Origin: Candidatus Accumulibacter phosphatis
GTDB taxonomy: Bacteria; Pseudomonadota; Gammaproteobacteria; Burkholderiales; Rhodocyclaceae
Length of the DNA stretch: 32,050 bases
NCBI RefSeq assembly: GCF_012939955.1
Contig: NZ_SPMY01000049.1
Coordinates: 1 to 32,050, forward strand
Direction of reading: 5' to 3'
Numbering within the stretch: position 1 is the stretch's first letter; each line of letters opens with the position of its first letter. A model generated the notes under the pieces. That model made no database searches and was not told the DNA's origin. It saw only the letters and a program-made list of their open reading frames with translations. Positions 609-26,962 of this stretch are shown one piece after another. Position numbers and translations under genes: made by a program.

Positions 609-621
609 GGCGACGCTCCGC

Positions 622-1449: not shown

Positions 1450-1459
1450 AGTTGCCGCT

Positions 1460-1933: not shown

Positions 1934-1946
1934 GGCTATTGGTACC

Positions 1947-2819: not shown

Positions 2820-2828
2820 TGACAACCT

Positions 2829-6118: not shown

Positions 6119-6121
6119 CGG

Positions 6122-7111
6122 CTACTCCGCTGTACCCTCGCGCATCTGTTTGCGCCGGATGAGCAGGGCAAGCAGGAGACAAACCATGACCCCCAGCAGC
6201 AAGCCGTAGCCCCAGTAGGGATAGGAGTAGGTCGAGAACTGCGCCACCTTGCCCTCGCCAAACACCGTCGGCATGAAAGGCTTGACCGTGAAAGCGCCCC
6301 AGGGGTGCATGTTGTGGCCAAAGAACCATAGCCAGCCGGCGTAGGTGATGACGAAAAAGACCGGCAGCAGGGCCGGAACCAGCGCCAGCAACAGCGAAAA
6401 GCTGCGCATGCCGGCGACACCGGCCAGCACCACCAGCATTGCCAGCAGCGTCCCGGCGATCACCACATGCGTGATAGTGGTGACATTTTCACCCCAGCCC
6501 TGGATCTTCTCGGGCTCGTTGAAGAAGGTTGCCGTTTCGCTGACATAGTGGGCGACATGCGCTTCCAGTCCACCCATCACGTACTGGTCGACAATGATCC
6601 AGCCGGCGACCGCGGCAAAGCCGACAGCGAGCAGCAGCAGCCGCGGCTTGCGACGTGGCACCATGAAGCCGACGAGCATCACCGTGAAGAAGGCGAAGAA
6701 GAACTTGGCCAGCGGCTTCTCCACCGGCGCGCCGGTGGCGATCGGGAACATCCCCACGTAGTGGTTGATGGTGTTCATTTCGTGCACGCAGTCGAGACCC
6801 TCGGCACCCTTGTTGACGTCCCTGTTCTTGTCGGTGATCGGGTTGTAGCGCTCGTCGTCGTGCGCGAGCTCCTTCTGGATGATCTCGCTATCCATGCGCG
6901 TGCCCTTGCCGGCCGCCTTGCAGCCGTTATAGACACCATCGAAATGGAAGTGGATGCGAATGCCATCGGGGAAGGCGTCGGCGGGATAGTTCGGCGCGGT
7001 CAGGGAGACCCACCAGATCGGCGCGAAGAAAGCGGCGATCATCAAGCCGGTGGCGACCGCGGTAAGCGCGGCGACGATGAAATTCTGCTTGCTGGGTGCT
7101 GCGGCTGACAT
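6122..7111 (-). CDS. nosB: NosB, clade II nos cluster membrane protein
   Basis: This 329-aa membrane protein has about six predicted helices: residues 12-35, about 135-150, about 160-180, and three to four between about 215 and 320. A periplasmic loop of about 100 residues after the first helix contains two cysteines (NGCKAA and LDCVHEM). Position between the di-haem cytochrome and nosD matches NosB, a membrane protein found with Sec-exported clade II NosZ. Its biochemical function is not firmly established; electron transfer or maturation has been suggested. CGAGGA lies seven bases before the ATG. It begins 3 bp before nosD. Confidence 0.82.
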   Translation of the reverse strand: MSAAAPSKQNFIVAALTAVATGLMIAAFFAPIWWVSLTAPNYPADAFPDGIRIHFHFDGVYNGCKAAGKGTRMDSEIIQKELAHDDERYNPITDKNRDVNKGAEGLDCVHEMNTINHYVGMFPIATGAPVEKPLAKFFFAFFTVMLVGFMVPRRKPRLLLLAVGFAAVAGWIIVDQYVMGGLEAHVAHYVSETATFFNEPEKIQGWGENVTTITHVVIAGTLLAMLVVLAGVAGMRSFSLLLALVPALLPVFFVITYAGWLWFFGHNMHPWGAFTVKPFMPTVFGEGKVAQFSTYSYPYWGYGLLLGVMVCLLLALLIRRKQMREGTAE

Positions 7112-7228
7112 GGTTCAATCCTCGTTCAGGACGCTTGCGCTGTTCACGACCGGCGATGCAGGTGGCGATCCGTGCCGTGCAGCAGCGGTCTCCAGAATAT
7201 TATTCATTACTTATACTTGCCGGGAACT

Positions 7229-7260
7229 AAAGCCCGCCGCAGAACCTGCGGACGGGCTTT
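7229..7260 (-). terminator. hairpin between the di-haem cytochrome and nosB
   Basis: AAAGCCCG-C-CGCAG and CTGCG-GA-CGGGCTTT form a long GC-rich stem with an AAC loop. It lies 42 bp downstream of the cytochrome stop and 117 bp before nosB. On the minus strand only TTT follows the stem, so it may be a partial terminator or an mRNA processing and stability hairpin. It would let the cytochrome be made in excess over nosB and the downstream genes. Confidence 0.55.
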
Positions 7261-7301
7261 GGCAGCGACAAAACGCGCTCCTTGTTACTTGCAAAGCATG
7301 C

Positions 7302-8033
7302 TTACTTCTTGGCCGTTGCCTTTGGCTTGCACATATTGCCCGGCATGACCAGACTCGACTGATAGGCCGAAATGGCGACCAGCTGCTTGTCGTCGTACTT
7401 CTTGATGATCTTGACCATGTCCGGGTTCGCGTTGCGGCGGTGGCCGTCGCGAATCTCGGTCATCTGGCGCAGCAGGTACTTGTAGTGCTGGCCGGCGATC
7501 ACCGGGTAGAACTTGTCCTTGACGCCCTCGCCATTCGCGCCGTGACACTCCTTGCATTCCTTCTCGTAGAGCGTCTTGCCGGTCGCCAGTTGCGCGGCGG
7601 CATCGGGACCCTCGTATTTGCCGTGTTCGATGGGGATACACAGCGCTTCGATATAGACCGCGACGTCAGCCAGTTCCTGCGGGTCGATAAGGGTCGCGGC
7701 AAAGGGGTACATCGTCGGATTGTCACGCAGACCGGCACGGATATCGGCCATCTGCTTGATCAGCACGGTGGTGTGCTGGCCCGCCAACTGGGGAAAAGTG
7801 CCATCGGGACGGCCGGCTCCGGACGGCAGGTGGCAGGCGCCGCAGACCTCGTAACCTTCCTCGCCACGCACCTTGTCACCCTTGAGCTTCAAGGCCTCCA
7901 TCTTTTCGCCTTCGTCGGCGTTCCATTTGTAGGACTTGTCCTCGATGCCGTGCGCCTTGGGTGGTGGCGGACCAGCCTGCGCGGCACCTGCCGCGATCAT
8001 CGCCAGCGAAACGGCCAAAATCAGTTTCTTCAT
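7302..8033 (-). CDS. periplasmic di-haem cytochrome c (c4/c553-like)
   Basis: This 243-aa exported protein has a signal peptide (residues 1-20, ending AQA) and two haem-binding motifs, CGACH (64-68) and CKECH (160-164). Each is followed by a PxxAGQ block and a KQM/RQM segment typical of class I c4 cytochromes. Such cytochromes accompany clade II nosZ and are presumed to deliver electrons to the CuA centre of NosZ. GGGAG precedes the ATG. A perfect FNR-type box lies 66-79 bp upstream of the start. The tail is basic (KPKATAKK). Confidence 0.9.
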   Translation of the reverse strand: MKKLILAVSLAMIAAGAAQAGPPPPKAHGIEDKSYKWNADEGEKMEALKLKGDKVRGEEGYEVCGACHLPSGAGRPDGTFPQLAGQHTTVLIKQMADIRAGLRDNPTMYPFAATLIDPQELADVAVYIEALCIPIEHGKYEGPDAAAQLATGKTLYEKECKECHGANGEGVKDKFYPVIAGQHYKYLLRQMTEIRDGHRRNANPDMVKIIKKYDDKQLVAISAYQSSLVMPGNMCKPKATAKK

Positions 8034-8070
8034 TTCCTAACTCCCTCGTGTTTGAGAATCCACAGCTGTC

Positions 8071-8112
8071 AATCTAACAAGCAGCCCGACGTTTGGCGTT
8101 GATACTCATCAA
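8071..8112 (-). promoter_or_regulatory. FNR-dependent promoter of the cytochrome-nosBDGHFLY operon
   Basis: TTGATACTCATCAA (8099-8112) matches the FNR/ANR consensus TTGAT-N4-ATCAA exactly. A minus-strand -10 candidate TAGATT lies at 8071-8076, centred 32 bp from the box centre. That is the spacing expected when FNR binds at -41.5 in a class II promoter. The predicted start is near 8064. This implies activation when oxygen is low. The binding protein (FNR, ANR or Dnr type) cannot be told from the site. Confidence 0.75.
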
Positions 8113-8194
8113 GTCAGGCGCGCGACACTCGGCTCGCTAGCCGCGCCCTGCCCACCGCCTGCGCCTGCCAGCGACAACTGCTGCCGACAAGAAC

Positions 8195-8509
8195 TCAGGG
8201 CTTGAGCTTGGAGAGGTAATCGGCCAAGACCTTGATCTGCTCATCGCTAACCAGCGGCATGACGCCTTTCATCGCTGCCGAGTTGCCGTTGGCACGCGCC
8301 CCGCTCTTGATGTCCAGCATCTGCTTTTCGAGATACTTGGCATTCTGTCCGGCGATCTTCGGGTAATCAGGCATCAGCGTCTTGTTTCCCGCCGGGCCGT
8401 GACACGCGGCGCAGGTTTTCTCCGCATACACTTTGGCGCCGTCTTCCGCCGCCAGAACCGGCGAGGCGGCCAGGGTCGCCAACACCACCATAGCCATCAA
8501 CTTCTTCAT
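8195..8509 (-). CDS. small periplasmic cytochrome c
   Basis: This 104-aa class I cytochrome c has a signal peptide MKKLMAMVVLATLAASPVLA, one haem site CAACH (33-37), and a distal methionine candidate in AMKGVMPLV. It resembles cytochrome c552/c553-type carriers and is a likely electron donor to NosZ, whose gene ends 83 bp upstream. An ATG six bases earlier (8515) is in frame. ATG 8509 was preferred because AAGGA lies six bases before it and directly abuts the other. Confidence 0.9.
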   Translation of the reverse strand: MKKLMAMVVLATLAASPVLAAEDGAKVYAEKTCAACHGPAGNKTLMPDYPKIAGQNAKYLEKQMLDIKSGARANGNSAAMKGVMPLVSDEQIKVLADYLSKLKP

Positions 8510-8592
8510 GGTCATTCCTTTTTCTCATAAGAAAACGGGGAACAGAGTAACTCCGCCCCCCGCTGAGTTGCCTTGAGCCAGATCAATACGAC

Positions 8593-10891
8593 TTACTTGG
8601 CCGGCTTGGCGCCGTTCTGCTCGAGATAAGTCTTGGCACGCAGGCCGAGGTCTGCCGCCTTGACCTGGTATTGCCAGATCTGCTCGGTCCACAGCGTGGC
8701 GTTGTTCCAGTCCTTCTTGCCAGAAGCGTCGTCAGCCTTGGCCTTGGCGTCCTTGATCTTGCCCAGCTGGTCGACCGCGTCGTCCATCATGGCGACCACA
8801 TCCGGGAAGTCCTTGTAGTTGACACCGGTGATGTAGCCAACCACCGAGTCGATCACCGCCTGCGTATCGACCACTTTCTTCAGCTGCGCCTTGTAGTCCG
8901 CTTCGCTGTAGTTGGTGCCGGCAGTCATCGCGGTCTTGGTCGGTTTCCAGCCTTTCGGCTTGACCAGCAGGTAACCCTGCATCTCGAGGTGCAGCGCCGA
9001 GCAGAACTCCGTGCAGTAGTACGGATAGACGCCTTCCTTGTCAGCCTTGAACTTGACCTGGACCGTCTTGCCCGGCTCGATCGACGCATGCACGTTGTAG
9101 GTCGAGACGGCAAAGCCGTGCGTTTCGTCCTGCGCCCGCTCGAGGTTGGTCAGGTTGATGGTGACTTCGTCACCCACTTCGACCTCGATCGTTTCCGGCG
9201 TGATGTGCGAACGGATCAGCGTGCCGAAGACTTCGACCTTGTTGCCGGTGCGAACGATTTTCTCCTCACCCGCGCGCACAGCACCGGCATGCTTCTTGTC
9301 GGTGCGACTATCGGTACCGACCTTGTAGCGCACACCAGGCTTCAGCTTGTTCGCCTCGATGGCTACCACGTAGTGCGGCTCACCCAGCGGCAGAGGCATG
9401 TCGTAGAGCAGCTGCATCTTGTCTTCGCTGATGTCGATCAACTGGTGATTCTGCGGATGCAGCGGACCAACCGGGGCAAAGCGGTCGATCGACAGCTTGT
9501 TCAGCGCCACCAGGTAGCGACCCTTGGGAGCCATGGAATCGCCTTCCATGGTCATCAGATGGCCGATGTTGTAGTGCACGCTGATCTTGTCGAGGACCTT
9601 GCCTTCGCAGTAGTTCCACTTGGCGACCTGCGAGTCCACATACAGCGAGGTGTAGGCCACGCACGGCTTCGAGTCATACTGGGTATGCAGCGGGCCGAGG
9701 CCGAGCTGGACCTGGGTATGCAGCGCGTCCTGCATGTTGATCACCGGCAGGCCGTAGGGGTCCTTCGACTCGAACTTGCCGGCCTTGATCGCGGCCATGA
9801 TCTTCTCGAAGGAGTACACCGAAACGTGCGTGTCGAGCTTGCCGGAAACGGTGATCAGCTTGCCGTCCGGAGTGACATCGACGCCGTGCGGCGATTTCGG
9901 TTCCGGAACCAGGAAGACGATGCCTTCCTTGATCGAAACATCCAGCGGCAATACGTTGTGGCCGTTGATCTTCTTGGCCTTGCCGGCAGCAACCAACTCG
10001 GCGGCTTTCTTCCAGTTGATGACGTGCATGTAGTCGGTGTCTTTGGCCGAGCAACCCGCTTCATACGGGGGGGCGACCTTTTTCGATACCGCCGACGTAA
10101 CGCTCGGTACAGAAGGAGTTGGTAAACGACCAGCCGTCAGACGGTCCCTTGCCGGCATCCGACAGGTCCTGGCTGTACGGCGGCAACTCGATCGAGAAGG
10201 ACAGCGCCGGATCGATGCGGCCTTCCTTGCGATCGAACTTCCAGTAGGTGACGCCGCCACGGTATTTCTCGTTGAAGTCCTCGAGTGGCTCGAATTTCTT
10301 GTTCGCCAGCGGCGTCGCGTACTGCGCAGCTTCGATCACGTACTCGGTGTCGGGGGTGACGAAAGCGCCGCCGTGCTCGGACTTGTAGATCGGGTTGACG
10401 ACGATCTGCTTGGTCTCGAAATCACGCAGGTCGATGACCGCCAGGCGCGGGTTGGCCTTGTCGTTGATGAACAGGAACTGCCCGTCGTACTGGCCCTGCG
10501 TCTCCGACATCGCCGGGTGGTGGGTATCGCCCCAGGTGATGTCCTTGCCATCGATCTTGCCTTGCGCAAGGATGGCCTTCGAGCTCTCGTCAAAGCCGTA
10601 GCCCTGCCAGGGTTCCGGCGTGAACACGCCGATATATTTGAGGATACGCATCGACGGCACGCCGTAGACAATGACCTGTCCCGACTGGCCGCCGGACGAA
10701 AAGGCGATGAACTCATCGCGCTTTCCGGTCGGCACATAGGTCTTGGCAGCGGCCAGCAGGTCCTGCTGTGAAAGGCTTCGACGCTTCATCACGTCCTGTA
10801 GTGATTCGGCAGCATAGCTGCTGCCGGAAGCTGCGAAGCCAAGTCCTGCGACCAGTAGCAGCGACGCGACTTGCTTCATGCGAAATTCCAT
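8593..10891 (-). CDS. nosZ: NosZ, clade II nitrous oxide reductase (one-base frameshift)
   Basis: NosZ reduces N2O to N2 in the periplasm. The restored product is about 765 aa. The signal peptide is of Sec type (residues 5-27, no twin arginine), the hallmark of clade II. CuZ ligands are visible in DTHHP (124-125), SEHGGAF (173), PLHTQY (402), HYNIGH (439, 444) and HPQNH (478, 482). CuA lies in CTEFCSALHLEM (C626, C630, H634, M637) with H591. About 115 residues follow CuA, with no CXXCH motif, longer than standard NosZ. Seven C on the coding strand (plus-strand G-run 10067-10073) break the frame after residue 275. Six C restore GRPPYEAGC. ATG 10891 follows GGGAGAG. As written, neither half could make an active enzyme. 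Confidence 0.95.
10067..10073. other. homopolymer frameshift site in nosZ
   Basis: The run is seven G on the plus strand. With six, the two reading frames join without loss as KGRPPYEAGC. The upstream frame as written stops with TGA at once, after PPV. Confidence 0.85.
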
Positions 10892-15166: not shown

Positions 15167-15814
15167 TCATCGAACCATATTCTGCCAAGCGGTAGTAAAC
15201 TTCCAAGCCGCAGCCGCGACCTTGTCCGCTGTCATGCCTGGTTTATAAAGCGCTGATCCCAAGCCGAAGCCTGTCGCCCCGGCACTAAGATACGGCTGCA
15301 TGTTCTCCGGCGTGATGCCGCCGACGGGCAGTAGGCGCGTCCCCTTGGGTAGCACAACACGGATCGCCTTAAGAATTGCTGGTGTGACCAGTTCCGCCGG
15401 AAAAATCTTTAGCGCATCGGCACCCGCCGCCAGCGCTGCAAAGGACTCGGTTGGGGTAGCTACACCTGGCGCACAGATCAGTCCCGCGTCTTTGGCCGCA
15501 CGAATCACCGCGGTATCCGCATGCGGCATGACTACCAGTTCGCCACCGCAGGCCTTGAGTTGCTGAACGTTCTCGATCGTCATCATGGTGCCGGCACCGA
15601 CCAGCGCATCAAGGGGCAAGGCACGGCGAATCGTGGCGATGCTGGCGAAAGGATCGGGTGAGTTGAGCGGCACTTCGATCAGGCGGAAGCCTGCTTCGTA
15701 GAGTTTCAGCGCAACACCTTCCGACTCCTCCGGCTTTAGGCCCCGCAGAATGGCGACCAGTGGCAGTTTTGAGTTGGCTGAAGCAAAACGTTCAGCGACA
15801 GAATTAGTCGACAT
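15167..15814 (-). CDS. dgoA: 2-dehydro-3-deoxy-6-phosphogalactonate aldolase
   Basis: This 215-aa cytoplasmic class I aldolase of the KDPG/KDPGal family cleaves 2-dehydro-3-deoxy-6-phosphogalactonate to pyruvate and glyceraldehyde 3-phosphate. The Schiff-base lysine is K136 in ADALKIFPAE and the catalytic glutamate is E47 in LIEVPLNS. VGAGTM and LPVGGITPENM are phosphate and substrate loops. The block PLVAILRGLKPEES and the pairing with dgoK point to the galactonate enzyme rather than Eda. AGGGA precedes the ATG. It is 33 bp downstream of dgoK and probably cotranscribed. Confidence 0.9.
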   Translation of the reverse strand: MSTNSVAERFASANSKLPLVAILRGLKPEESEGVALKLYEAGFRLIEVPLNSPDPFASIATIRRALPLDALVGAGTMMTIENVQQLKACGGELVVMPHADTAVIRAAKDAGLICAPGVATPTESFAALAAGADALKIFPAELVTPAILKAIRVVLPKGTRLLPVGGITPENMQPYLSAGATGFGLGSALYKPGMTADKVAAAAWKFTTAWQNMVR

Positions 15815-15847
15815 TTTCGATTCCCTATTAGATTTCAGGGCATTGCC

Positions 15848-16816
15848 CTAAGCAATCCGCCCCGACGCCATTGCGAGATTCCATAATCCGGCCGGGGCGG
15901 TATTGTCGAGCACGGCATCAGCGGACTGACCCATGTACTTCAGGGAGTGCACATAGCGCTGACAGAGCGACGGTGCGCCGATCATGACCAGTGGAACTGA
16001 AGTTAAATCGCCAGCGCCGGCCATTCCAGAAACAAGTTCATGACCGATCAACAGGCCGGAGAGATATTCGGCTAGAGAAGCTAGCGGCAATCGACCGGCC
16101 AATCCCAGCGTGCGCGTCCCGAAAATCTGTCGCGACAAATCTCCAGGGCCGCTGCGTCGTGCGGTGGCCAGCCCTAGTTCGAACGCAGCTGGATCGGATT
16201 CCGATTTACTATCACCCTCTGCGGGCATCAAGCGGCCCAGGATGGAGTGCTTGCTCAGAACGGAAAATAGCTCACCGGTCAGATAGGTGGAGTAGCGGAC
16301 AATCCGGCCGTTTTCGATCTGCGCCCACTTCGAATGGGTCCCCGGTAGCAGCATGCAGGATCGGATCGCCCATTGTGGGTTGGTCAGCAAGGCGCCGGCA
16401 ATCTGAATTTCTTCTCCGCGCATAACGTCCGGCAACGCATCCGGTACGTCGAACAGAACGCCGGGGGCAATCAGAATATCCGGCCCCAGCCCGCTTTGCA
16501 CCGTAATGCTCTTGCTCGCGAGGAGCTGCATGTCAGCCGGGCAGCGCACATAGGGTGCTTCCTTCCAGCCTTGGGCGCTACCGACCATACCACAGGCGAC
16601 GATAGGCAATTGCGGCCATTGCGCGACCCAGTCACCGGCGATTTCAGCAAAGGCCTGCTCGTAGCCGGCAGTTCCTGATGACGGAAGGTGCTGGATGCCA
16701 TGCCCGGATTGCCGAGTTTCAATAACATTGCTCTCGCGCATCAAAAAAGCACGAAGACTTGAGGTGCCCCAGTCTAGGCTAAGCAACTGGGGGGTGAGAC
16801 CAAAGTAATTGCTCAT
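15848..16816 (-). CDS. dgoK: 2-dehydro-3-deoxygalactonokinase
   Basis: This 322-aa sugar-acid kinase phosphorylates 2-dehydro-3-deoxygalactonate at O6, the step before DgoA in the De Ley-Doudoroff pathway. The ATP-binding opening LSLDWGTSSLRAFL (residues 13-26) and the motif LPGTHSKW are typical of DgoK. No galactonate dehydratase, transporter or regulator of the pathway is in the window. The base composition looks somewhat less GC-biased than the nos genes, consistent with, but not proof of, separate acquisition. Confidence 0.9.
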   Translation of the reverse strand: MSNYFGLTPQLLSLDWGTSSLRAFLMRESNVIETRQSGHGIQHLPSSGTAGYEQAFAEIAGDWVAQWPQLPIVACGMVGSAQGWKEAPYVRCPADMQLLASKSITVQSGLGPDILIAPGVLFDVPDALPDVMRGEEIQIAGALLTNPQWAIRSCMLLPGTHSKWAQIENGRIVRYSTYLTGELFSVLSKHSILGRLMPAEGDSKSESDPAAFELGLATARRSGPGDLSRQIFGTRTLGLAGRLPLASLAEYLSGLLIGHELVSGMAGAGDLTSVPLVMIGAPSLCQRYVHSLKYMGQSADAVLDNTAPAGLWNLAMASGRIA

Positions 16817-17303: not shown

Positions 17304-18242
17304 CTACATCGCTTTTCCCGTGCGCGCCGGCACGGGTTGGCCTGCCGCACGCGGCGCGGGCGGCGCCGAGGTGCTGGCAGAACCGCCGATGGCCGGGAAG
17401 CTGGCCTTGCACTTGATGCCGGCCGGCAGCTTGAAATCCGGATTGGGCAGTTCGAGGCGCACTCCGAAAGTTCCGCTGGCGGCGTCGAAGACGCGGTCGA
17501 TGACCTGCACGGTCGCCATGTAGCGTCCGCCGATCGGCGCTTCCGGCAGGACCTCGACTTTCTGGCCGGCGCTGAGTTTGTCGAAGGCGTCGATCGGCAT
17601 CAGCACCTCGACGTACAGCGTGCCGATGGCCGCCAGTCTGAGGATCGGCTTGCGCAGGTCGCGATTGTCGGCGAGTTCGCCGGCGCTGAGCAGGCGATCG
17701 ACGACGACGCCGTCCACCGGGCTCGCGATGGTGCGCAGACGCAGTTGCTCGGACAGGCGGCGATATTCGAGCTCCGACAGGCGGCGGTCGTCCCTGGCTT
17801 CGAGCAACTCGGATTCGGCGAGCTGCTTCTCGGTCAGTGCTTCGTCGCGGTCGTGCAGCGAGATGAAGGCCTGCTTCGCCAGTTCCTCGCGACGCTTGTA
17901 CTTGGTCGTCGAAAAGGCGACGCGGCTTTCGCCGGTGCGGATGCGCCCCTTCATCGTCGAACGATAAAGTGCGGCGTCGGTCGCGGCGCGTTCGACGCCG
18001 GCATCCAGGGTCACCAGGACCTGGCCCTTCTTGACCATGTCGCCGCGATCCACCCAGATCTTCTCGATCAGACCCTCGCTCGCCGCCCGCACCTCCACGC
18101 TCTTGCTCGGCTCGATGATGCAGTCGAACTCGGCTGCCAGCCCGCTGCCCGACGCCAACAGCGCCAGCAGCACGGCGCTGCCGATCCGGCTCCAGACGGC
18201 ACTCCCGACGCCCCTCCTCACCCGCTTTCCTCGACTGCGCAT
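17304..18242 (-). CDS. HlyD/MFP-type periplasmic adaptor
   Basis: This 312-aa protein has a basic N-terminus and one signal-anchor (about residues 15-37). The biotinyl-lipoyl-like half VRAASEGLIEKIWVDRGDMV is followed by a helical hairpin (about residues 95-170) and the second lipoyl half RTIASPVDGVVVDRLLSAGE. A beta-barrel follows, with YVEVLMPIDAFDKLSAGQKV. This is the membrane-fusion-protein architecture. No RND or ABC partner is adjacent. ATG 18242 has GAGGAG nine bases upstream and lies 4 bp after the SecA-like stop, so longer upstream frames were dropped. It is likely an adaptor that spans the periplasm for the SecA-like/M50 system. Confidence 0.85.
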   Translation of the reverse strand: MRSRGKRVRRGVGSAVWSRIGSAVLLALLASGSGLAAEFDCIIEPSKSVEVRAASEGLIEKIWVDRGDMVKKGQVLVTLDAGVERAATDAALYRSTMKGRIRTGESRVAFSTTKYKRREELAKQAFISLHDRDEALTEKQLAESELLEARDDRRLSELEYRRLSEQLRLRTIASPVDGVVVDRLLSAGELADNRDLRKPILRLAAIGTLYVEVLMPIDAFDKLSAGQKVEVLPEAPIGGRYMATVQVIDRVFDAASGTFGVRLELPNPDFKLPAGIKCKASFPAIGGSASTSAPPAPRAAGQPVPARTGKAM

Positions 18243-18246
18243 TTTT

Positions 18247-20262
18247 CTATTCTCCTCTTCCAGCAAACGCCAGAGACTGCTCGACGCGCTTGTCCATTTC
18301 AACCGTCTGCCGCCGAATCCGCGAATTCTGCCGCTCGGCCGCTGCTTGTGCGGACCGGCGCAGCAGGCGTGCGAGCGGTGCCGGGAGTAGCCCGGCCTCT
18401 GAGACCTGCGCGCGCAGCCAGCCGCGCCACGCTGCAGCATGGGCGAGAAACAATTCGTCATCAAGCGAGACGATCGCTTCGCATGATCCGGGATCTCCCT
18501 GCCGACCGGCACGGCCGAAGAGCTGCCGATCGATGCGTGCCGAGTCATGGTATTCGGAAAGAATGACGTGCAGGCCGCCGGCCTGGCGAACTTCCGGGCT
18601 GAGCAGGATGTCCGTGCCGCGCCCGGCCATGTTGGTGGCCACGGTGATCCGCCCCGGCTGACCGGCGTCGGCGATGATCTCGGCTTCGCGCTGGTCCTGG
18701 CGCGCGTTGAGCACTTCGTGCGCCAGTCCGGCTGCGCTCAGACAGCAGCTAGCCAACTCGGAAGCGGCCACCGAACGCGTGCCGATCAGCACCGCCCGTC
18801 CCGCCGCCCCTATTTCGGCAGCGCGCTGCACCACCGCGGCCCAGCGAGCATCGCTGTCGAGGAACACCCGCTGCCCGAGGTCGCGGCGCACGACCGGTCG
18901 ATTCGGCGGAATGCGCAGCACGTCCATGGCATACACCGAGCGCATTTCCGGCGCCACTTCGGTGACCGTGCCGCTCATCCCGGCGAGACACAGGTAGCGG
19001 CGAAAGAAGCGCTGATAGGTGATGCGCGAGATGGTGTCGCGTCGTTTACTGATTGCCAGCGCCTCCTTGACCTCGATCATCTGGTGCAGGCCACGCTCCC
19101 ACGAACGGTCGGCCATTACCCGGCCGGTGTACTCGTCGACGATCTGCACCTTGTCATCGGCGATGATGTAATGCCGGTCGAGTTGAAAAAGATGCAGCGC
19201 CGACAGGCCCTGTTCGACCAGTTCCTCGCGCGCCCGCGGGATGCGCCACAGGCCGGACAGCCCGCAGGCGAAATCGCCGACCGCCGCACGACCGGCGTCG
19301 GTCAGCTCGATGCTGCGTTCCTTCGGGCGGAGCAGGTAATGGCCCTTCTTTTTCAGGCTGGCGGCCAGGGCCAGCGCCTGCTCGTAGAGGGCACGCCCGT
19401 TCGGGTCGTCGACGTCGCTGGAAATGATCAGCGGCGTTCGCGCCTCGTCAATCAGAACACTATCGGCTTCGTCGACGATCGCGAAATAGAGACCACGCAG
19501 CAAGACCTTGCTGCGCGCCTGAGCCGGCGCGCGCGGTCCCGCCAGCCAGCCGTCGAGCACGGCCCGCGGACCGGCGCGCACGCGTTTCTGCGTAATGCGG
19601 TCGCGCAGATAGTCGAAGACCAGATCCTTGTTCACGCAGTAGGTGACGTCGGCGGCGTAGGCCGCGCTACGCTCGGCGGGCTCCTGGTCGGGGACGATCA
19701 GGCCGACACGCAAGCCGAAGAATTCGTAGACCGGCGCCAGATACTCGGCATCGCGAGCCGCCAGATAGGGATTGACGGTAATCACATGCACTGGCGCGCC
19801 GGCCAGGGCCACGGTCACGGCCGGAAGAACGGCGGTCAGCGTTTTGCCTTCGCCGGTCTGCATTTCGGCCAGCGCGCCGGCCAGCATGGCGTAGCCGCCC
19901 ATCAACTGCACCGGGTAGTGGCGCAGACCAAGCTGCCGCGAACAGACTTCGCGCACCAGCGCAAAGCACTCGGCGACCGGCGCCTCGGCAAGCCCTTCGA
20001 CGGCCAGAAGCGTGCGCACGGCGCCTGCCCGGCTGCGCAGCCCCACGTCATCGATGGCCAGCAAGTCCTCCGCCAGCACCTGCACGCGCGCGGCAAAGCG
20101 CCGTAGGTCGTAGCGGCGCAAGGGCGAACCCAACTGCGCGCTGCGCCCCAGCAGGCGCCCGATGAAGCGGTCGAGACGATTGTCCTTGAGGTCGCGACGT
20201 TCGGCGTACAAGCCGGGTGCAAACTCATGCACCTGCCAGCGATCGAGCAGCGCCCTAGACAT
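18247..20262 (-). CDS. SecA-like translocase ATPase, short form
   Basis: This 671-aa DEAD-type motor resembles SecA but is well below the usual length of about 850-900. Visible motifs are Walker A MQTGEGKT (134-141), YCVNKDLVFDYLRD (SecA has TNNEYGFDYLRD), DEAD (264-267) with VLIDEARTPLIIS, LAGMSGT, TNMAGRGTDI and QLFGRAGRQGDPGS. The C-terminal linker and zinc-binding CPCGSGKKY-type domain of housekeeping SecA are absent. ATG 20262 overlaps the M50-gene stop by eight bases, indicating coupled translation. It is probably an accessory SecA dedicated to substrates of this operon, pushing them through SecYEG or into the M50/HlyD proteins. Which of these holds is inference. Confidence 0.9.
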   Translation of the reverse strand: MSRALLDRWQVHEFAPGLYAERRDLKDNRLDRFIGRLLGRSAQLGSPLRRYDLRRFAARVQVLAEDLLAIDDVGLRSRAGAVRTLLAVEGLAEAPVAECFALVREVCSRQLGLRHYPVQLMGGYAMLAGALAEMQTGEGKTLTAVLPAVTVALAGAPVHVITVNPYLAARDAEYLAPVYEFFGLRVGLIVPDQEPAERSAAYAADVTYCVNKDLVFDYLRDRITQKRVRAGPRAVLDGWLAGPRAPAQARSKVLLRGLYFAIVDEADSVLIDEARTPLIISSDVDDPNGRALYEQALALAASLKKKGHYLLRPKERSIELTDAGRAAVGDFACGLSGLWRIPRAREELVEQGLSALHLFQLDRHYIIADDKVQIVDEYTGRVMADRSWERGLHQMIEVKEALAISKRRDTISRITYQRFFRRYLCLAGMSGTVTEVAPEMRSVYAMDVLRIPPNRPVVRRDLGQRVFLDSDARWAAVVQRAAEIGAAGRAVLIGTRSVAASELASCCLSAAGLAHEVLNARQDQREAEIIADAGQPGRITVATNMAGRGTDILLSPEVRQAGGLHVILSEYHDSARIDRQLFGRAGRQGDPGSCEAIVSLDDELFLAHAAAWRGWLRAQVSEAGLLPAPLARLLRRSAQAAAERQNSRIRRQTVEMDKRVEQSLAFAGRGE

Positions 20263-22402
20263 TGAAACGCGAGAGGAAGAGCTGTCGCAGCCGCCGCCCC
20301 CACTGCTCGGCCAGGGGCTCGGCGCGGTGGTGGAAACGCACATAGACGCGCGTACCGATCTGTAGTGGCCCCACCTCCGGCGGCAACTCGAGGTCGAACT
20401 GAAACAAGCGCTGCAGCGACTTGAGGCCGTTGGGGTCGCGCGGATCGGTGCCGTGCTGGCCGCCGCCTTCGAGCGACAGCGCCCTGCTGGGCAACTCATC
20501 ATGCCCACCCGGCACCTCGCGAATCAGGCGCGCGCTATAGGTCTGCTCGACGCGGTCGGCGATCTTTACCCGCACCTCGTCGCGTGCTTCGCGGACCAGG
20601 GCAATGTCATCCTGGCTGACGACCACCCGCACCAGCCGCGGCGGCCCGTCGAGCACGTAGCCGAGCAGCTCGCCCTTCTTCACGAAGCGCTGCGGCAGAT
20701 CCTGCGGCCGCGCCAGCTTGAGGGCGCCGGCTACGGCGGCAACCACCAGCAGTGAATCGACTTTTTCTTCGGCGCGCGCCAGGGCACTTCTTTCCCGGCG
20801 CAGATCCTCCTTGGTCGCCGCCGCCTGCGTACGCTCGTCGAACATCTGCGTGGTGTACTGCACCTCGAGCTGGCGTACCCGCGCCCGCGCCTGCTCAAGC
20901 TCGGCAGCAAGCGTCGGCTGGGCGGTCACCAGCAACACCTCGCCGACCTCGACGCGCTCTTCTGGCTGCACCAGCAGCTGTTCGACAAAGCCATCGGCAG
21001 CGGCGCGCACTTCGGCATTCTCGGGAACCCAGACGACGCCCTCGGCGTGGGTGCGCAAAGGCATCGGCACCGAGAGCACGAAGAGCACAAAGGCGGCCAG
21101 CGACCCGAAAGTGACCAGGCGGGCACGCGTGCGGTGGCGCTGTAGCTCGGGACTGGAGAGCACATAGTTGAGACCCTTGCCGATCGGTAGCACGAACATC
21201 GTCGTCGCTGCCCAGAGCGCCAGCAGCACCCCGACAAAGAAGAACTCCCCGGCAATGAACAGGGTGATGACGATCATCACCAGCGTCCGGTAGACGAACG
21301 ACGCCGCCCCATAGAACAGAAACCAGCGCCGTTCGCCGAGCGACGCCGGTGGTCGCTCGACGCTCGTGATGCCAAAGAGGTAGCGCTTGGCGAGCCATTG
21401 CCAGTATTGATTCGAGCGGTTGCCGAGATTGGCGATTTCGATCAGATCGGCGAGAACGTAATAGCCGTCGTAACGCAACAAGGGGTTGCCGTTGAAGAGC
21501 AGGGTCGAGGCACCGGCAACGAAGAGCACGTTGAAGGCGATCGAGCGCACCAGCCCGGGCTCGACCATCACCCACACCGCCATGGCGATCGCCGCCAGGA
21601 ACAGTTCGACCAGCATCCCGGCGGCGCCGACCAGCGCCCGCCGCCATTTGTTGCGAAAAGCACCGGAGGCGGTCGCGTCGACGTAGGGAATCGGCGCCAG
21701 GACGAGCAGCATGATGCCCATCTCGTGCACCTCGCCGTCGCCCGACTTGACGGCGTAAGCGTGACCCAGCTCGTGCAGCGCCTTGATCAGCGGGTACACC
21801 AGCCAGAGCAGGATGAGGTTATGCGCCGAGAGCACCTGATCACTGAGGTTGGCGGTCAGCTCATGCCAGTTCACGCCGGCAAGAACCATCGCCGGCAGCA
21901 CCGCCAGCAACCACAGCAAAAGCCCGAGCGGAGCGAACAGCGGCCGCATCAGCGGCCAGCTGCGGTCCAGGAAAACGTCGGGATCCCACAGCGGAATGCG
22001 GATCGACATCGGGTTGATGAAACTTTGCAGCAGCTTCTGACGCTTCTGCTTGCTGCCGCGCTCGGCCAGCTCATCGACATCCGGAGGCAGGTCGGCCTGC
22101 AGCAGGTCACCGGCGTGCAGTTGCGCCAGCAGGCGGATCACTTCGTCCTGCGTCGGCGCCTCTTCGCCGGCTTCTGCGGCCACCTCGGTCCACATCTCGT
22201 CGATCGTGCGCTGCCCGTCCATCAGCTGGATCACGCGGTAGGCCGCCGGGCTGAAACGATGCAGCTTGCCGGAGGCGCTATCGTGCAGCACGTACCACGG
22301 CTGGCCGCGAAAGCGCTGGCGATGGATGCGCGCATGCGCGCGCAGCTCGGGGCGCAGGCCGGCGACGCGATACCAGGAGGCACTGAGAAACGGGGCGGCC
22401 AT
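20255..22402 (-). CDS. PqqD-like / M50 metalloprotease / HlyD fusion protein
   Basis: This 715-aa membrane protein has three parts. Residues 35-105 resemble a PqqD-like winged-helix or RRE fold (HDSASGKLHRFSPAAYRVIQLMDG). Residues 150-450 are polytopic with the zinc site HELGH (210-214) and a second NPLLRYDGYY block, as in M50 site-2-type intramembrane proteases. Residues 465-700 form a HlyD-like adaptor (VRAAADGFVEQLLVQPEERV, then a coiled coil). RRE folds bind leader peptides in RiPP systems, so a peptide or leader-bearing substrate is plausible. It starts 13 bp after the GAF-HlyD gene. Relatives are annotated as peptidase M50, with function generally unknown. Confidence 0.88.
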   Translation of the reverse strand: MAAPFLSASWYRVAGLRPELRAHARIHRQRFRGQPWYVLHDSASGKLHRFSPAAYRVIQLMDGQRTIDEMWTEVAAEAGEEAPTQDEVIRLLAQLHAGDLLQADLPPDVDELAERGSKQKRQKLLQSFINPMSIRIPLWDPDVFLDRSWPLMRPLFAPLGLLLWLLAVLPAMVLAGVNWHELTANLSDQVLSAHNLILLWLVYPLIKALHELGHAYAVKSGDGEVHEMGIMLLVLAPIPYVDATASGAFRNKWRRALVGAAGMLVELFLAAIAMAVWVMVEPGLVRSIAFNVLFVAGASTLLFNGNPLLRYDGYYVLADLIEIANLGNRSNQYWQWLAKRYLFGITSVERPPASLGERRWFLFYGAASFVYRTLVMIVITLFIAGEFFFVGVLLALWAATTMFVLPIGKGLNYVLSSPELQRHRTRARLVTFGSLAAFVLFVLSVPMPLRTHAEGVVWVPENAEVRAAADGFVEQLLVQPEERVEVGEVLLVTAQPTLAAELEQARARVRQLEVQYTTQMFDERTQAAATKEDLRRERSALARAEEKVDSLLVVAAVAGALKLARPQDLPQRFVKKGELLGYVLDGPPRLVRVVVSQDDIALVREARDEVRVKIADRVEQTYSARLIREVPGGHDELPSRALSLEGGGQHGTDPRDPNGLKSLQRLFQFDLELPPEVGPLQIGTRVYVRFHHRAEPLAEQWGRRLRQLFLSRFNV

Positions 22403-22415
22403 TGCTGTCAGCCGC

Positions 22416-24293
22416 CTAGGGCAACCAGATCCAGGCCTGCATGCGCAACCAGTCGCTCAGTCGATGCGTCCAGATCCAGGCATAGCTCTGCTCGCCGACG
22501 CTGATCTTGCCAACCCCTTCCATGCCCGGGCGCAGCTTGAGGTCGCTGCGATCGAGCTGCGCTTCGACGCGGAAAGTGTTCTTGCCCTCTTCAGCCTCGG
22601 CCATCGAGATGTTGCGCACTTCAAAAGCCAGGGCTTCGCCGGTCAAGCCGGTGAGCACCAGCTTGCCCGACTGGCCGACGCGCACATCGCGAATATCGCG
22701 GTCCTCGACTTTCAGGATCACCCGGTAGGCATCGAGCGGCGCCAGCTCGAAAAGCAGCTTGCCCTGTTCGACGGGCGAACCGAGCAACTGGCTGAGATCG
22801 CCCGACACGACGATACCGTCGAAAGGGGCGACGATGTTGGCGCGCGCCAGTTTCTCGTCGACCAGCGCCAGTTGCGAGTTGGCTTCCTGCATTTGCGCCA
22901 GCGAGACATTGGCCGTGGCTCTCTCGTGCTTGGCCAGCGCTTCGCGGTAGCGCCCCTGGTGCTGCTCGCGCTCGGAGAGCCAGCGCTGGCGCTCGACGCG
23001 CAGGTCGCGATCGTCGAGCGTCGCCAGCAGCTGTCCCTCCTTGACGACGAAGCCGGCGCGCACCGGTGCCTCGCGCAGGAAGCCATCGAAGGGGGCCACC
23101 GCCGCGCGCTGCACCTCCCCCTCGACAACCGCCTTGGCGCTGACTCGATAGTCGCCGTCGAGCAGGAAAACACCCAGCAAGAGGAGCAGTGCTGCGGCCA
23201 GCGCGACACGAAAACCGGGGCGGCGATGATCCTTGAGATGCAGCCACCAGCCGCGCAGCTTGTCGACCAGGCGACCGGCAAACCAGCGATGCTGATCGAC
23301 CCGGCTCTCCAGCAAGGGCCCGAGCAAAGCGCTGACCGCTTCGAAAAGCCTCGTTTCCTCGGCGCTGAAAGGCGTCCCCTGATTACGCTCGAAAGTCAGT
23401 ACGCCAACGCCGATGCCGCGGCTGCCGAGCACCACCGAACACACGGCTCGCGTGGCAGCAAAATCGCGGTGAGCAATGGCGATGCCGCCGTGGCTTTCCG
23501 CGCCGGCCGGAAAGAGCACGCTGCGCCGCTGATCGAGGGCTTCGTCCATGGCGTTTTCGAGAGCGGTGACGAACTGGCTCTTCTTTTCAAAGAAGGCCGA
23601 GTGTGACATGGCCAGCAAACGCGCCCGCCCTCCCCGGTCGACGCCGAGCGAAACCCGGTCGCAGTCGAAGCGGCTGGCAAGATCATTGACCACCGCCATC
23701 GCCATGGGATTGAGGCGGGCCTGCTCGGCGGCCACGCCGAGAACGTCGAGGGCCACGCGCGCACGCTGCAAGGCCTGCGCGTCGTCACCATTCTGGCGGC
23801 GCAGGAAGAGCGTTTCGATCCAGCCGATTCCCCAGTGCAGTTGCCGAAGCACCAGTTGCAAGGCCACGTCCGAGCGTTCGGCGACATCGAGCACGACCGC
23901 CCCGTGCACCTGTCCTTCACGTTCCACGGGATAGGCGACGACCACCACAGCACCTGCCTGGCCCGGCAGGAGAAGCCCGCGCCGCTGGCTCAGGCACTGC
24001 TGAGCGGCCGGCGCGAGGTAGGTGACGTCGGTCTGTTCGGACGGCCAGACGGCGGCCGGAACGAAAGTACCGCTGCCCTGCTCGAGCAGCAGCAGGGCCG
24101 CACGCACGTCGGCGACCTGCAGGCATTGCAGCGACAGCCAACTAGTACAGAATTCGGCCGACGTCTGCGCTGCCGCAAAAGCTCCCCACAGCGCATCGTC
24201 GTGCGCTCGCCTGGCATGATCGCCAAGCCCGGGAGACAGGCCTAGGGCTGCGCCTGTCTGCGGCCCGCTGGAAGAATGGAAACTGGAAGGCAA
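22416..24293 (-). CDS. GAF domain-HlyD adaptor fusion protein
   Basis: This is a 625-aa protein. A cytoplasmic half (about residues 30-340) has a GAF-like part with VVNDLASRFDCDRVSLGV and GGIAIAHRDFAATRAVCSVVLG. One transmembrane helix follows (VALAAALLLLLGVFLL, near residue 365). A periplasmic HlyD-type lipoyl/hairpin region follows (VAPFDGFLREAPVRAGFVV and NIVAPFDGIVVSGDLSQLLG). GAF domains bind small ligands or partners, so this adaptor may sense a cytoplasmic signal. TTG 24293 is chosen because GGAGG lies seven bases upstream. A TTG at 24320 gives a longer frame without such a site. It is followed at 13 bp by the M50 fusion gene. Confidence 0.85.
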   Translation of the reverse strand: MPSSFHSSSGPQTGAALGLSPGLGDHARRAHDDALWGAFAAAQTSAEFCTSWLSLQCLQVADVRAALLLLEQGSGTFVPAAVWPSEQTDVTYLAPAAQQCLSQRRGLLLPGQAGAVVVVAYPVEREGQVHGAVVLDVAERSDVALQLVLRQLHWGIGWIETLFLRRQNGDDAQALQRARVALDVLGVAAEQARLNPMAMAVVNDLASRFDCDRVSLGVDRGGRARLLAMSHSAFFEKKSQFVTALENAMDEALDQRRSVLFPAGAESHGGIAIAHRDFAATRAVCSVVLGSRGIGVGVLTFERNQGTPFSAEETRLFEAVSALLGPLLESRVDQHRWFAGRLVDKLRGWWLHLKDHRRPGFRVALAAALLLLLGVFLLDGDYRVSAKAVVEGEVQRAAVAPFDGFLREAPVRAGFVVKEGQLLATLDDRDLRVERQRWLSEREQHQGRYREALAKHERATANVSLAQMQEANSQLALVDEKLARANIVAPFDGIVVSGDLSQLLGSPVEQGKLLFELAPLDAYRVILKVEDRDIRDVRVGQSGKLVLTGLTGEALAFEVRNISMAEAEEGKNTFRVEAQLDRSDLKLRPGMEGVGKISVGEQSYAWIWTHRLSDWLRMQAWIWLP

Positions 24294-24340
24294 GTAGTGG
24301 CCTCCAAACCGGCGCAACAATGGAAAGAGGGAAGCAAGGC

Positions 24341-24356
24341 CTGCTGCCGGCAGCAG
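24341..24356. repeat. 16-bp perfect palindrome between operon genes
   Basis: CTGCTGCCGGCAGCAG lies in the 120-bp gap between the DUF3467 gene and the GAF-HlyD gene. It could form a short hairpin that lowers expression of downstream genes or protects the DUF3467 mRNA. There is no T-tract, so a full terminator is unlikely. Confidence 0.45.
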
Positions 24357-24413
24357 CTATCCCCGCAGCGAACGGATGCTGGCAGCAGGCGCCCCGGCCA
24401 TCATACGGGCTTC

Positions 24414-24755
24414 CTAGTTTCCCTGGTTCAACTCGCCGTAGCGACCCTCGTATTCGCTGACCAGCTTGCCAAGCATCAGCGCCAGGCGCTTGGCGGCGAA
24501 GGGACTCATCACAATGCGATGCTCCAGCCTGACGTCGTACTCGGAAACGCCCCGGTCCCAGCTCTCGTTGACCCCGAAGTTCATCACCACTTCCTCGCGC
24601 GTCGTGGTCACGTTGACCATATTGCAGTAGCTGCTCTTCACCGACGCCGTATTCATCCGGATCTGCTGTTCCCCGGCCGTCGCAGCTCGCGTCTCGACCG
24701 CTCCTGCCGAAGCCTTGACCGGTGCTGCAGGGGTTTCAGGTTTTTCTTGTGCCAT
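24414..24755 (-). CDS. DUF3467 family protein
   Basis: This 113-aa soluble protein has a low-complexity Ala/Pro/Glu N-terminus (residues 1-30). The family core follows: MNTASVKSSYCNMVNVTTTR, EEVVMNFG, RIVMSPFAAKRLALMLGKLV and EYEGRYGEL. Function of the family is not established, and the small beta-rich core with a helical end suggests a binding or chaperone role. ATG 24755 has GGGAG nine bases upstream. In-frame sequence before it is not protein-like and was dropped. It is the first gene of the operon and is 120 bp ahead of the GAF-HlyD gene. Confidence 0.85.
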   Translation of the reverse strand: MAQEKPETPAAPVKASAGAVETRAATAGEQQIRMNTASVKSSYCNMVNVTTTREEVVMNFGVNESWDRGVSEYDVRLEHRIVMSPFAAKRLALMLGKLVSEYEGRYGELNQGN

Positions 24756-25191: not shown

Positions 25192-26073
25192 TCAGGATTT
25201 GCCTGCTCCGAAAATCTCCTCGAGGCTGGCCGCGTCAAGTACTTGATCAAGCCAAAGGTCGACCTGCTCAAGGGAAGCCGTAGAGATCATCGCCAGAACA
25301 GGCGACGGGACGGTACCAAAACGCTTCTGCAGCAGCTTCTGCAAGGCCAGCGCTTCACCCTCGGCTTTTCCTTCGGCTTTTCCTTCAGCCTTGTAGGCGT
25401 GCGCCCATTCTTCGAGTCGTTCGGCCAACATGACATTCAGCTCCTGTAGGTCATCCATCCGAGGCAACACGATACGATATTCGGCCTTGCGCATCAACGT
25501 CGCGCGGATCCAGAGGGCAAACCTCCGACGCAGGTCGGGCCGGTCGACCAGCCACTCGTCGAGGAGACCGAGCAAGACGCCGATGGTGGCCAGCGACGCC
25601 GGGTGTTCGATGCGAAAGACGGCCGCCACCAGGTTGTTGAGCGAGGCCAGTTCGCCGTCGGTGTAGGCGTTCTCGTCGATCAGCAGGTACTTCAGCCGGG
25701 GCTTGAACTGCTCGACCAGCCGCGGCACCGGCGGGATCAAGTCAAAGACGTCGCTTGACGCCGTCCAGCGCTGGCTGCCGTTGTAGAGGACGATCGGCAG
25801 GACGGGCGGCAGGCGGCCGTCGGCCAGCACCTCGCCACGCTTGATCAGGTCCTGATAGAGCAGCCCGACATAGACCATCATGCGCAGCGCCATGTAGCGG
25901 TCGACGCGGCTCTGGAATGTCAGCAGCAAATAGCACGCCGCGAAGAACTCGGCGAAAGTCAGCACTTCCGTCTGCGCCTTGGCCTGCCCGCGAAGGTTGG
26001 CACCGAGAGCTATTTCTGCCCTGAGCGACCTTGCCTGCTTGCGTGCATCGGCCAGCGCGAGGTCGATCGTGCG
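25192..26073 (-). pseudogene. integrase fragment fused to the C-terminal part of an Rpn-type nuclease
   Basis: From about 25932 down, the frame is clearly the Rpn/YhgA-like transposase-nuclease family: FQSRVDRYMALRMMVYVGLLYQ, then LPPVLPIVLYNG, and a DUF4351-like tail ALALQKLLQKRFG. The N-terminal PD-(D/E)XK catalytic part that normally precedes FQSRVDRYMALRMM is missing. In its place residues encoded at 25942-26073 (VGRTIDLALADARKQARSLR, then TFAEFF) resemble the arm-binding and SAM-like start of a tyrosine recombinase. The join looks like a deletion between two elements. A KAEGKAEGKAEG repeat lies before the DUF4351 part. The open frame extends to 26391 without recognisable protein. Probably not a functional nuclease. 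Confidence 0.6.
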
Positions 26074-26962
26074 GCCTACTTTCTGGTGGCAGGTCTTGCC
26101 ATTGATAAGGCCTGCGCACTGGTAAGATGTCGCCCTCGCTGAGGCAACTTGAGCGCCCTCAGCTCGCCCCCCCTTCCGATATCCGAAAAGCCAAGGTTTG
26201 TTGGCTAACGAATTGGAGGCCGCCATGACTATCGCTGCTGCAACACCACCAAGCGCCATCTTCAGCACTTTGCCGCTATTGGCGCTGCTGCTGGTCATCA
26301 TCGCCATGTTCCGCTGGAGTTGGACCTGGCGCGCCAGGGGCTTGCCATGGGGGCCAATGTCATTGTCGGGCTTCGCAAGAGCAACGCCCACTATGACCAG
26401 GCCGGATCACAATGGCGAGTGTCGCGCGTCACGTACCAGGGGACGGCTGTCGTCGTGGACCGGAAAATGCCGCGGGCTGAATCGGCGGCGTGAACGGGCC
26501 GCCGTGGATGCTGGTATCGACACGTCGCTCTACGGCACGGCCAGCTTGATTGATCGCCGGACCAAACCTCGGGAAGAAGCGAGTGCGTCCTCGGGCAAAT
26601 CACACGGTGACGCGAGCGGTGATCCGCTGGGGCACGGTCGACAATGGCCTTGCCATCGCTGAGCGCACACGGCGTTGCTCGGCGATGGCCCGTGTTGCCG
26701 GCCTCTCAAACCGGTGGTCAGCAACCCGGCGCGGACGCCCGAACCTGGCTTGATGACAAACGAAGAAAAGACCGTCAATATTCACGTGACGCTTGTCGCG
26801 AAATTTTGCTGGGGCGGGGGTACTAACTGAAGTGGACAAGTCTCGCAGCGGCAGCACCTCTCAGATTTTCGCCCATCGGGAGCGCCGGGGACAACTGGCT
26901 GACTGGTGGCACAAGACGGTCTGCGTAGAAAACAAGCCCGGGCGGCACGAGGGTAAAAGCGC
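26074..26962. other. remnant-rich interval without a clear gene
   Basis: No frame here is convincing. Two things stand out. A plus-strand ATG at 26225 with GGAGG five bases upstream opens a hydrophobic segment (PLLALLLVIIAM). An overlapping plus-strand frame open from 26209 to 26493 ends with a protein-like stretch (LARQGLAMGANVIVGLRKSN, then VSRVTYQGTAVVVDR) without its own start. They could be one frameshifted small membrane protein. A C7 run at 26167-26173 is another possible frame-slip point for the minus-strand frame. Confidence 0.35.

Follow-up and report, generated by a model that had tools for sequence, protein, structure and literature searches.

A five-gene locus with a short SecA-like ATPase as a probable exporter of LEPR-XLL giant proteins in Candidatus Accumulibacter phosphatis and its relatives

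Five adjacent genes of Candidatus Accumulibacter phosphatis probably form an exporter that works without an ABC (ATP-binding cassette) transporter and is dedicated to giant proteins of the LEPR-XLL type. They lie on the minus strand, at positions 17304-24755, of a contig that we analyzed over its whole length of 32,050 bases (contig C53, NZ_SPMY01000049.1, hereafter the window) and that belongs to a draft genome of 5.04 Mb. According to Pfam and NCBIfam, the order of transcription is DUF3467 protein, GAF-HlyD protein, PqqD-M50-HlyD membrane protein, short SecA-like ATPase, and HlyD/RND-type adaptor (hereafter MFP adaptor). Coordinates, strand, and gene order agree with a preliminary description of the same DNA, and Pfam bears out its claim of a SecA-like ATPase, three HlyD-type adaptors (two of them fused to GAF or M50), and a DUF3467 protein. 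That description had also proposed a dedicated export module in which a SecA-like ATPase and HlyD adaptors serve large substrates bearing a leader, which our analysis supports. It had called the system undescribed; this has to be withdrawn, since the locus was reported by Kamneva, Poudel & Ward in 2015 (PMC4452313). What is new here is the probable cargo, the PqqD-like domain, a group of degenerate SecAs, and a sister set of genes. The parts of the proposal differ in strength: giants that start with a basic leader and carry LEPRxLL are very likely the cargo of the operon, and the full mechanism of the exporter is put forward only tentatively.

The first line of evidence is the co-occurrence of operon and giants. 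The LEPR-XLL domain (NF012209, LEPR-8K) was tested as the mark of the cargo, and the window's genome has two matches to it (38.4 and 30.6 bits, against a cut-off of 17), in frames of 8156 and 11266 amino acids (aa). The last ~110 residues of one of these frames, on contig C35, look frame-shifted, a possible frameshift or assembly error. Among 101 relatives, LEPR matches were found in 25 genomes and the short SecA in 24, with both in 23 and neither in 75 (Fisher 2e-19, a value inflated by close kin); counted by genus, the same relatives give 7/7 versus 0/67. In these genomes the short SecA was defined by a match of >450 bits extending to the query end, which includes G023, where it is cut by the contig end, and excludes G010, where the piece has two stops, and pieces in G003 and G050:C20. 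Here and below, short-SecA and M50 genes are counted among the matches listed, and weak or partial copies may be missed. In 299 genomes across the phylum, where the short SecA was defined by a match to ~residue 656 of at least 590 bits, it was found in 34 genomes, LEPR in 39, and both in 28 (p 1e-24). By genus, 14 have both, 8 LEPR only, 4 SecA only, and 128 neither (p 3e-11). A relative of the M50-HlyD gene is present in 38 of the 39 LEPR genomes versus 48 of the 260 others, and 33 of the 34 short-SecA genomes belong to the 37 with the high-scoring M50 family (370 bits). The open frames holding LEPR matches reach 19,427 aa, and some short ones lie at contig ends. Planctomycetes, whose secreted proteins carry LExRxLL starts, lay outside these genome searches.

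The second line of evidence is proximity. In the phylum set, 23 of 52 LEPR starts have an M50-HlyD gene no more than 40 kb away, against about 2 expected. Among the relatives, a LEPR start is found at up to this distance from 12 of 31 short-SecA loci. We also used 80 named loci, the best 80 of 538, chosen via their M50 gene. Frames of at least 2000 aa, counted from stop to stop on either strand with shadow frames included, occur in 39/80 named loci and 5/30 relatives' loci versus 0/20 control stretches, which were placed at even steps in three genomes; at a threshold of 1500 aa, the figures are 46/80 named loci and 1/20 controls. In the 110 loci with GAF-HlyD, 44 same-strand frames of at least 1000 aa end ~2.5 kb or less upstream, a few of which are clearly other genes (e.g., in L059). 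About 14 of the upstream giants have a common C-terminal region; those of L067, L069, L082, L151, and L153 have in common a C-terminal stretch resembling DFVNHLG...RNPNAxLRV. Plasmids give the same picture. The M50 protein matches 17 PLSDB records, 13 of them over at least 80%, and 12 of these 13 also have the short SecA at 1e-100. Six of the 17 records were examined, and in four a giant is listed directly upstream; in the other two the operon is near the record start, and genes crossing that start are not listed. In one complete plasmid, an annotated LEPR-XLL giant overlaps the DUF3467 gene by 4 bases, and the plasmid of Methylosinus sp. C49 has giant, DUF3467, GAF-HlyD, PqqD protein, SecA, MFP adaptor, and TolC in a row. 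The short SecA of this strain (NZ_AP022333.1; L205 22222-24138) is 50.5% identical to that of the window over 91% and is annotated as a prepilin peptidase. The phage collection gave no match at 1e-20.

The third line of evidence is the N terminus of the giants, which has a mostly basic leader ending in (F/L)ExLEPRxLLxA(D) that is generally less hydrophobic than a signal peptide. The motif was present in 24 of 30 long frames read from the start, most of which had been chosen for their length or for having the motif, and in 3 of 4 plasmid giants at the annotated start. Two giants have the variant LEDRILLSAE. In 27 motif-bearing frames, the stretch before the motif has a net charge of 0 to +15 and a best 15-residue hydropathy of 0.63-1.57, compared with 1.55-2.41 for nine signal-peptide-like N termini; for these comparators, except the adaptor of the window, the start codon giving the highest hydropathy was taken, which favours a difference.

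Giant, repeat-rich cargo, adaptors, and TolC are also found in type I secretion (HlyBD-TolC, LapBCE), and one may ask whether a standard type I ABC exporter of the LapB type exports the LEPR giants while the five genes have another task in those genomes. The C-terminal pieces of the giants fit this idea to some extent, as matches below cut-off were obtained to RTX-type models for 6 of 10 and to a T1SS-143 repeat model for one, and adaptors and TolC are type I system parts. However, no type I C-terminal target model is among the matches listed for these 10 pieces, and the giants adjoin the five-gene operon. Moreover, the LapB-type model TIGR03375, which the window's genome does not match above cut-off, scores above it in 7/25 LEPR genomes and 23/76 others (p=1). 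We thus rejected the LapB-type system, the only class of ABC exporter tested, as the exporter of the giants, and regard this explanation as very unlikely. Type I secretion further differs from the locus in that none of the five genes encodes an ABC transporter and in that the signal here would be N-terminal instead of C-terminal.

The gene order of the operon recurs across many other genomes, beyond chance, which answers the possibility, raised in the preliminary description, that the genes might fail to occur together elsewhere. GAF-HlyD is found in 29/31 loci (window and relatives) and 78/80 named loci, M50 in 30/31 and (by construction) 80/80, the short SecA in 31/31 and 76/80, including three degenerate copies, and the MFP adaptor in 26/31 and 57/80. 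Among the four named loci lacking the SecA gene, L078 and L084 have a short SecA elsewhere in the genome, and L128 and L135 stop just past the M50 gene; LEPR occurs in 2 of the 14 genomes of the group to which the L084 genome belongs. TolC-like genes, several of them inside the operon, were found in 13/80 named loci and 1/30 relatives' loci; a further set of 11 loci (L150, L178-L187), retrieved because they were exceptions or low-scoring copies, has them in seven. The eight that were checked are all OEP by Pfam. Of the type I parts, the window's locus has the adaptors, and TolC is present in some related operons. The GAF-HlyD protein (22416..24320, minus strand; TTG start putative) has a GAF domain, a hydrophobic segment, and an RND-type adaptor (Pfam GAF, HlyD_3, HlyD_D23). 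The MFP adaptor (17304..18242, minus strand; NCBIfam RND_mfp 3.7e-36, Pfam HlyD_D23/HlyD_3) has a signal-peptide-like N terminus, judging from its hydropathy, and is predicted to be periplasmic. The DUF3467 protein (24414..24755, minus strand; 113 aa; Pfam PF11950, 7e-18) is encoded between giant and GAF-HlyD at several loci. A SecB-like chaperone role was considered for it and is at most a possibility: its model, with a single helix and three strands (pLDDT, the predicted local distance difference test, 78.6), has no PDB fold match at E <=0.001, and a sequence search gave one match at chance level (E 0.73). In one genome (G018; L036 7745-8880), GAF-HlyD was not found and the M50 gene is reduced to its C terminus; this genome has five LEPR matches.

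The PqqD-M50-HlyD protein (20255..22402, minus strand; 715 aa; Pfam PqqD 1.6e-6, HlyD_3, weak Peptidase_M50) is our candidate for recognizing the leader. In 13 of 17 family members, Pfam detects the PqqD-like domain (here 22100..22294, minus strand) with an E value no higher than 0.01, and the profile of the protein matches the solved PqqD structure 3g2b (5.9e-6). In the AlphaFold2 model (pLDDT 83.6), residues 24-97 form an N-terminal domain with three helices and three strands, in keeping with a PqqD-like winged helix. The model also has a membrane part made up of helices and a domain of the adaptor type, and its C-terminal part matches MexA (E 8.7e-11). PqqD-like domains bind leader peptides in pathways of ribosomally synthesized and posttranslationally modified peptides (RiPPs), and we therefore propose that this domain binds the LEPR leader. 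The Peptidase_M50 match (1.6e-4) is under the cut-off of Pfam, and the motifs of an M50 intramembrane protease are present: the HELGH sequence (HExxH, metal-binding; 21761..21775, minus strand) and a distal Asp in NPxxxxDG, with H210, E211, H214, N306, P307, and D312 invariant in 17/17 sequences. The protein is a predicted protease. These features recall another explanation, in which the protein matures a small peptide, as in a RiPP-type system, that is exported through the adaptors. Its best NCBIfam match is indeed the daptide HExxH protease (NF041824, 146 of 300 bits, under the curated cut-off), and NCBI calls several relatives "PqqD family peptide modification chaperone." Yet the recurring neighbour is a giant gene (short precursors and RiPP-modifying enzymes were not searched for), and we find this explanation most improbable. 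Daptide/epipeptide HExxH membrane proteases have a related M50 membrane part; they differ in that the protein of the window is below their model cut-offs, is fused to an adaptor, and has a giant as its proposed cargo.

The short SecA (18247..20262, minus strand; 671 aa; Pfam SecA_DEAD 1e-94, P-loop_SecA, SecA_PP_bind) has the DEAD, preprotein-binding, and P-loop domains and ends at the first scaffold helix. Its Walker A (TGEGKT, 19840..19857), DEAD box (19462..19473), and motif VI (GRAGRQGDPG, 18487..18516), all on the minus strand, are intact, and Pfam gives it no SecA_SW or SEC-C match, the two domains being present in the full-length housekeeping SecA of the same genome and characteristic of the canonical preprotein translocase. 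Both the intact motifs and the missing C-terminal zinc domain had been read correctly in the preliminary description, which left room for a duplicated housekeeping secA. We ruled out such a duplication, because in a tree 23 short SecAs and 12 housekeeping SecAs (13 housekeeping loci were offered, one without a frame passing the filter) form separate clades with support 100/100. A pattern search in the 112 SecA-like frames with a length of 600 aa or more recovered all three motifs in 98.

Could the short SecA simply work with SecYEG? In such an accessory Sec pathway, the giants would cross the inner membrane by SecYEG and then meet the M50 protein, the adaptors, and TolC. The protein is a SecA, no other known pore is encoded, and four genomes with the sister set have the housekeeping SecA only, all of which speaks for this pathway. 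On the other hand, the short SecA stops at the first scaffold-domain helix, without the SecA_SW and SEC-C of the genome's own SecA, and signal peptides are more hydrophobic than most leaders of the giants. Given the established SecA structure, the parts absent from the short SecA include the two-helix finger and the wing, which work with SecY. The wing is described as contacting SecY in the accessible text of PMC4452313. No second SecY accompanies the short SecA: among 24 short-SecA relatives, 21 have a single match, G000 and G009 have one gene in two adjoining pieces, and none was found in G070; yet SecA2-only systems need none, according to the same accessible text (PMC4452313). The sole SecY match of G000 (G000:C27:182637-183655) is split into two pieces that overlap and stand in different frames, and so is that of G009; this may be a draft error. 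On balance we judge the accessory Sec pathway somewhat unlikely. Gram-positive accessory SecA2 likewise stands beside a housekeeping SecA, and some accessory SecA2 systems serve dedicated large surface proteins. The SecA of the window, however, is under the cut-offs of the four NCBIfam SecA2 models among the matches listed (TIGR04397, 542 of 1085 bits; TIGR03714, 454 of 930; TIGR04221, 440 of 725; NF012136, 382 of 1100), and the adaptors and TolC here belong to a two-membrane envelope.

Several observations weigh against a dedicated exporter of this kind, which is known here from sequence and predicted models. Both giants of the window's genome are off the contig of the operon (on C35 and C55). 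LEPR occurs without short SecA in 2/25 relatives (G012, which is 88% complete in 820 contigs with no SecA of any kind found, and G019, with a frame of 235 aa) and in 11/39 phylum genomes, G110, G169, and G102 being scored as lacking short SecA despite a degenerate or cut copy in place. Conversely, 1/24 relatives (G006) and 6/34 phylum genomes have the short SecA without LEPR, and G283 is scored as lacking LEPR despite a LEPR start. Six of the 30 long frames have no motif: four appear to be shadow frames (L056, L090, L100, L101), one starts at the edge of its locus (L145), and one has an ordinary-looking signal peptide (L153). The motif is also missing from one of the four plasmid giants, and the hydropathy ranges of leaders and signal peptides just touch. 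DUF3467 is present in a minority of loci, 10/31 (window and relatives) and 26/80 (named). TolC is not in the window, as had been noted before: neither Pfam on 30 window open reading frames (OEP/TolC) nor a home-made TolC profile run against window frames of at least 60 aa gave a match. Adaptors make up all 50 fold matches listed for the M50 model, with no PqqD or M50 structure among them. Finally, the genes in the SecA position of L183, L184, L132, and the shorter L126 and L137 have no Walker A, DEAD, or motif VI, and G283 has LEPR giant, GAF-HlyD, M50, and MFP adaptor and, beyond its housekeeping SecA, only a match of 24-25 bits that was taken for probably another helicase. SecA is thus only a possible energy source, because the SecA-like gene lacks the ATPase motifs in some family members and is absent from one genome. 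The gene of L184 has no Pfam match, and L126, L132, L137, L183, and L184 may encode a SecA pseudo-enzyme in the place of SecA in the operon. In the sister set (L143-L148), the neighbours of a LEPR giant are a distant M50-HlyD, adaptors, and, except in L146, where none was seen, TolC. This set is found in four single-SecA genomes (G182, G290, G137, G164), a further point against an obligatory SecA, and also in G106, which has the short SecA/five-gene type too. From the degenerate SecAs, G283, and the sister set, the M50-HlyD/adaptor/TolC set therefore looks like the constant core, with SecA as a usual but replaceable part.

How might such an exporter work? The PqqD-like domain would bind the LEPR leader, and the short SecA would grip the unfolded chain and feed it, beginning with the N terminus, into a membrane part that either consists of the M50 protein or docks on it, the usual SecA-SecY contact being bypassed. 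Cleavage of the leader behind the motif may fall to the M50 protein, the adaptors would seal the channel to a TolC encoded elsewhere in the window's genome, GAF would gate the channel, and DUF3467 would be an accessory factor. The window's genome would use this exporter for its two giants. The five genes may thus represent a distinct one-step secretion system, a possibility that we raise with reservation, in which a minimal SecA uncoupled from SecY docks on a PqqD-M50-HlyD protein that recognizes and removes the LEPR leader, with export through adaptors and TolC of chains from thousands to perhaps 19,000 residues. With the same reservation, its spread would include Pseudomonadota as well as, judging from record titles, Nitrospirota and Omnitrophota.

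As far as the accessible text of PMC4452313 goes, Kamneva et al. reported a secondary SecA_DEAD locus, called its role completely unknown, and proposed a type I-like export with SecA as the ATPase and M50 as a possible pore. Like their locus, which comprises GAF-HlyD, M50-HlyD, SecA_DEAD without SecA_SW, an HlyD/biotin_lipoyl adaptor, and sometimes OEP, the window has a second SecA_DEAD protein without SecA_SW, distinct from the housekeeping one, and GAF-HlyD, M50-HlyD, and HlyD/biotin-lipoyl neighbours. It differs in that no cargo, PqqD domain, or DUF3467 is named in the accessible text, where the word "giant" does not occur. The proposed cargo (LEPR-8K/LEPR-XLL, NF012209) is known as a protein-domain model only; the term LEPR is mentioned in passing in the accessible parts of PMC10868602 and PMC9611531. 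The literature searched, which covers few subscription papers or preprints, gave no link between LEPR giants and the SecA_DEAD locus.

The surroundings of the operon in the window are of other kinds. The spacings given in the preliminary description are exact for 13 bp, an 8-base overlap, and 4 bp; the fourth, 120 bp between DUF3467 and GAF-HlyD, becomes 93 bp with the TTG at 24320, which means that the earlier value implies a start further inside GAF-HlyD. Its remark that the window has no ABC transporter is incorrect, given a NosF/NosY-type ABC pair at 622-2825. This pair is part of an unrelated nos cluster (108-10260, minus strand) with NosZ-like, NosD-like, NosL, cytochromes, and a redoxin. 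A KDPG/KHG aldolase and a 2-keto-3-deoxy-galactonokinase (15167-16816, minus strand) lie directly downstream of the operon, and a YhgA-like gene (Transposase_31, DUF4351; 25192-26391, minus strand) lies upstream, as does a relative in L041 and L047.

These results bear on the question of how the largest bacterial proteins leave the cell when neither an ordinary signal peptide nor an ABC exporter is involved. In the literature searched, the locus of 2015 has no assigned cargo; a specific and often adjacent cargo with a short N-terminal tag makes both questions testable in one strain. If the proposal is true, the system would show what SecA does without its SecY-contacting parts. It would also bear on the giant extracellular proteins of bacteria that live in biofilms and sludge, Accumulibacter among them.

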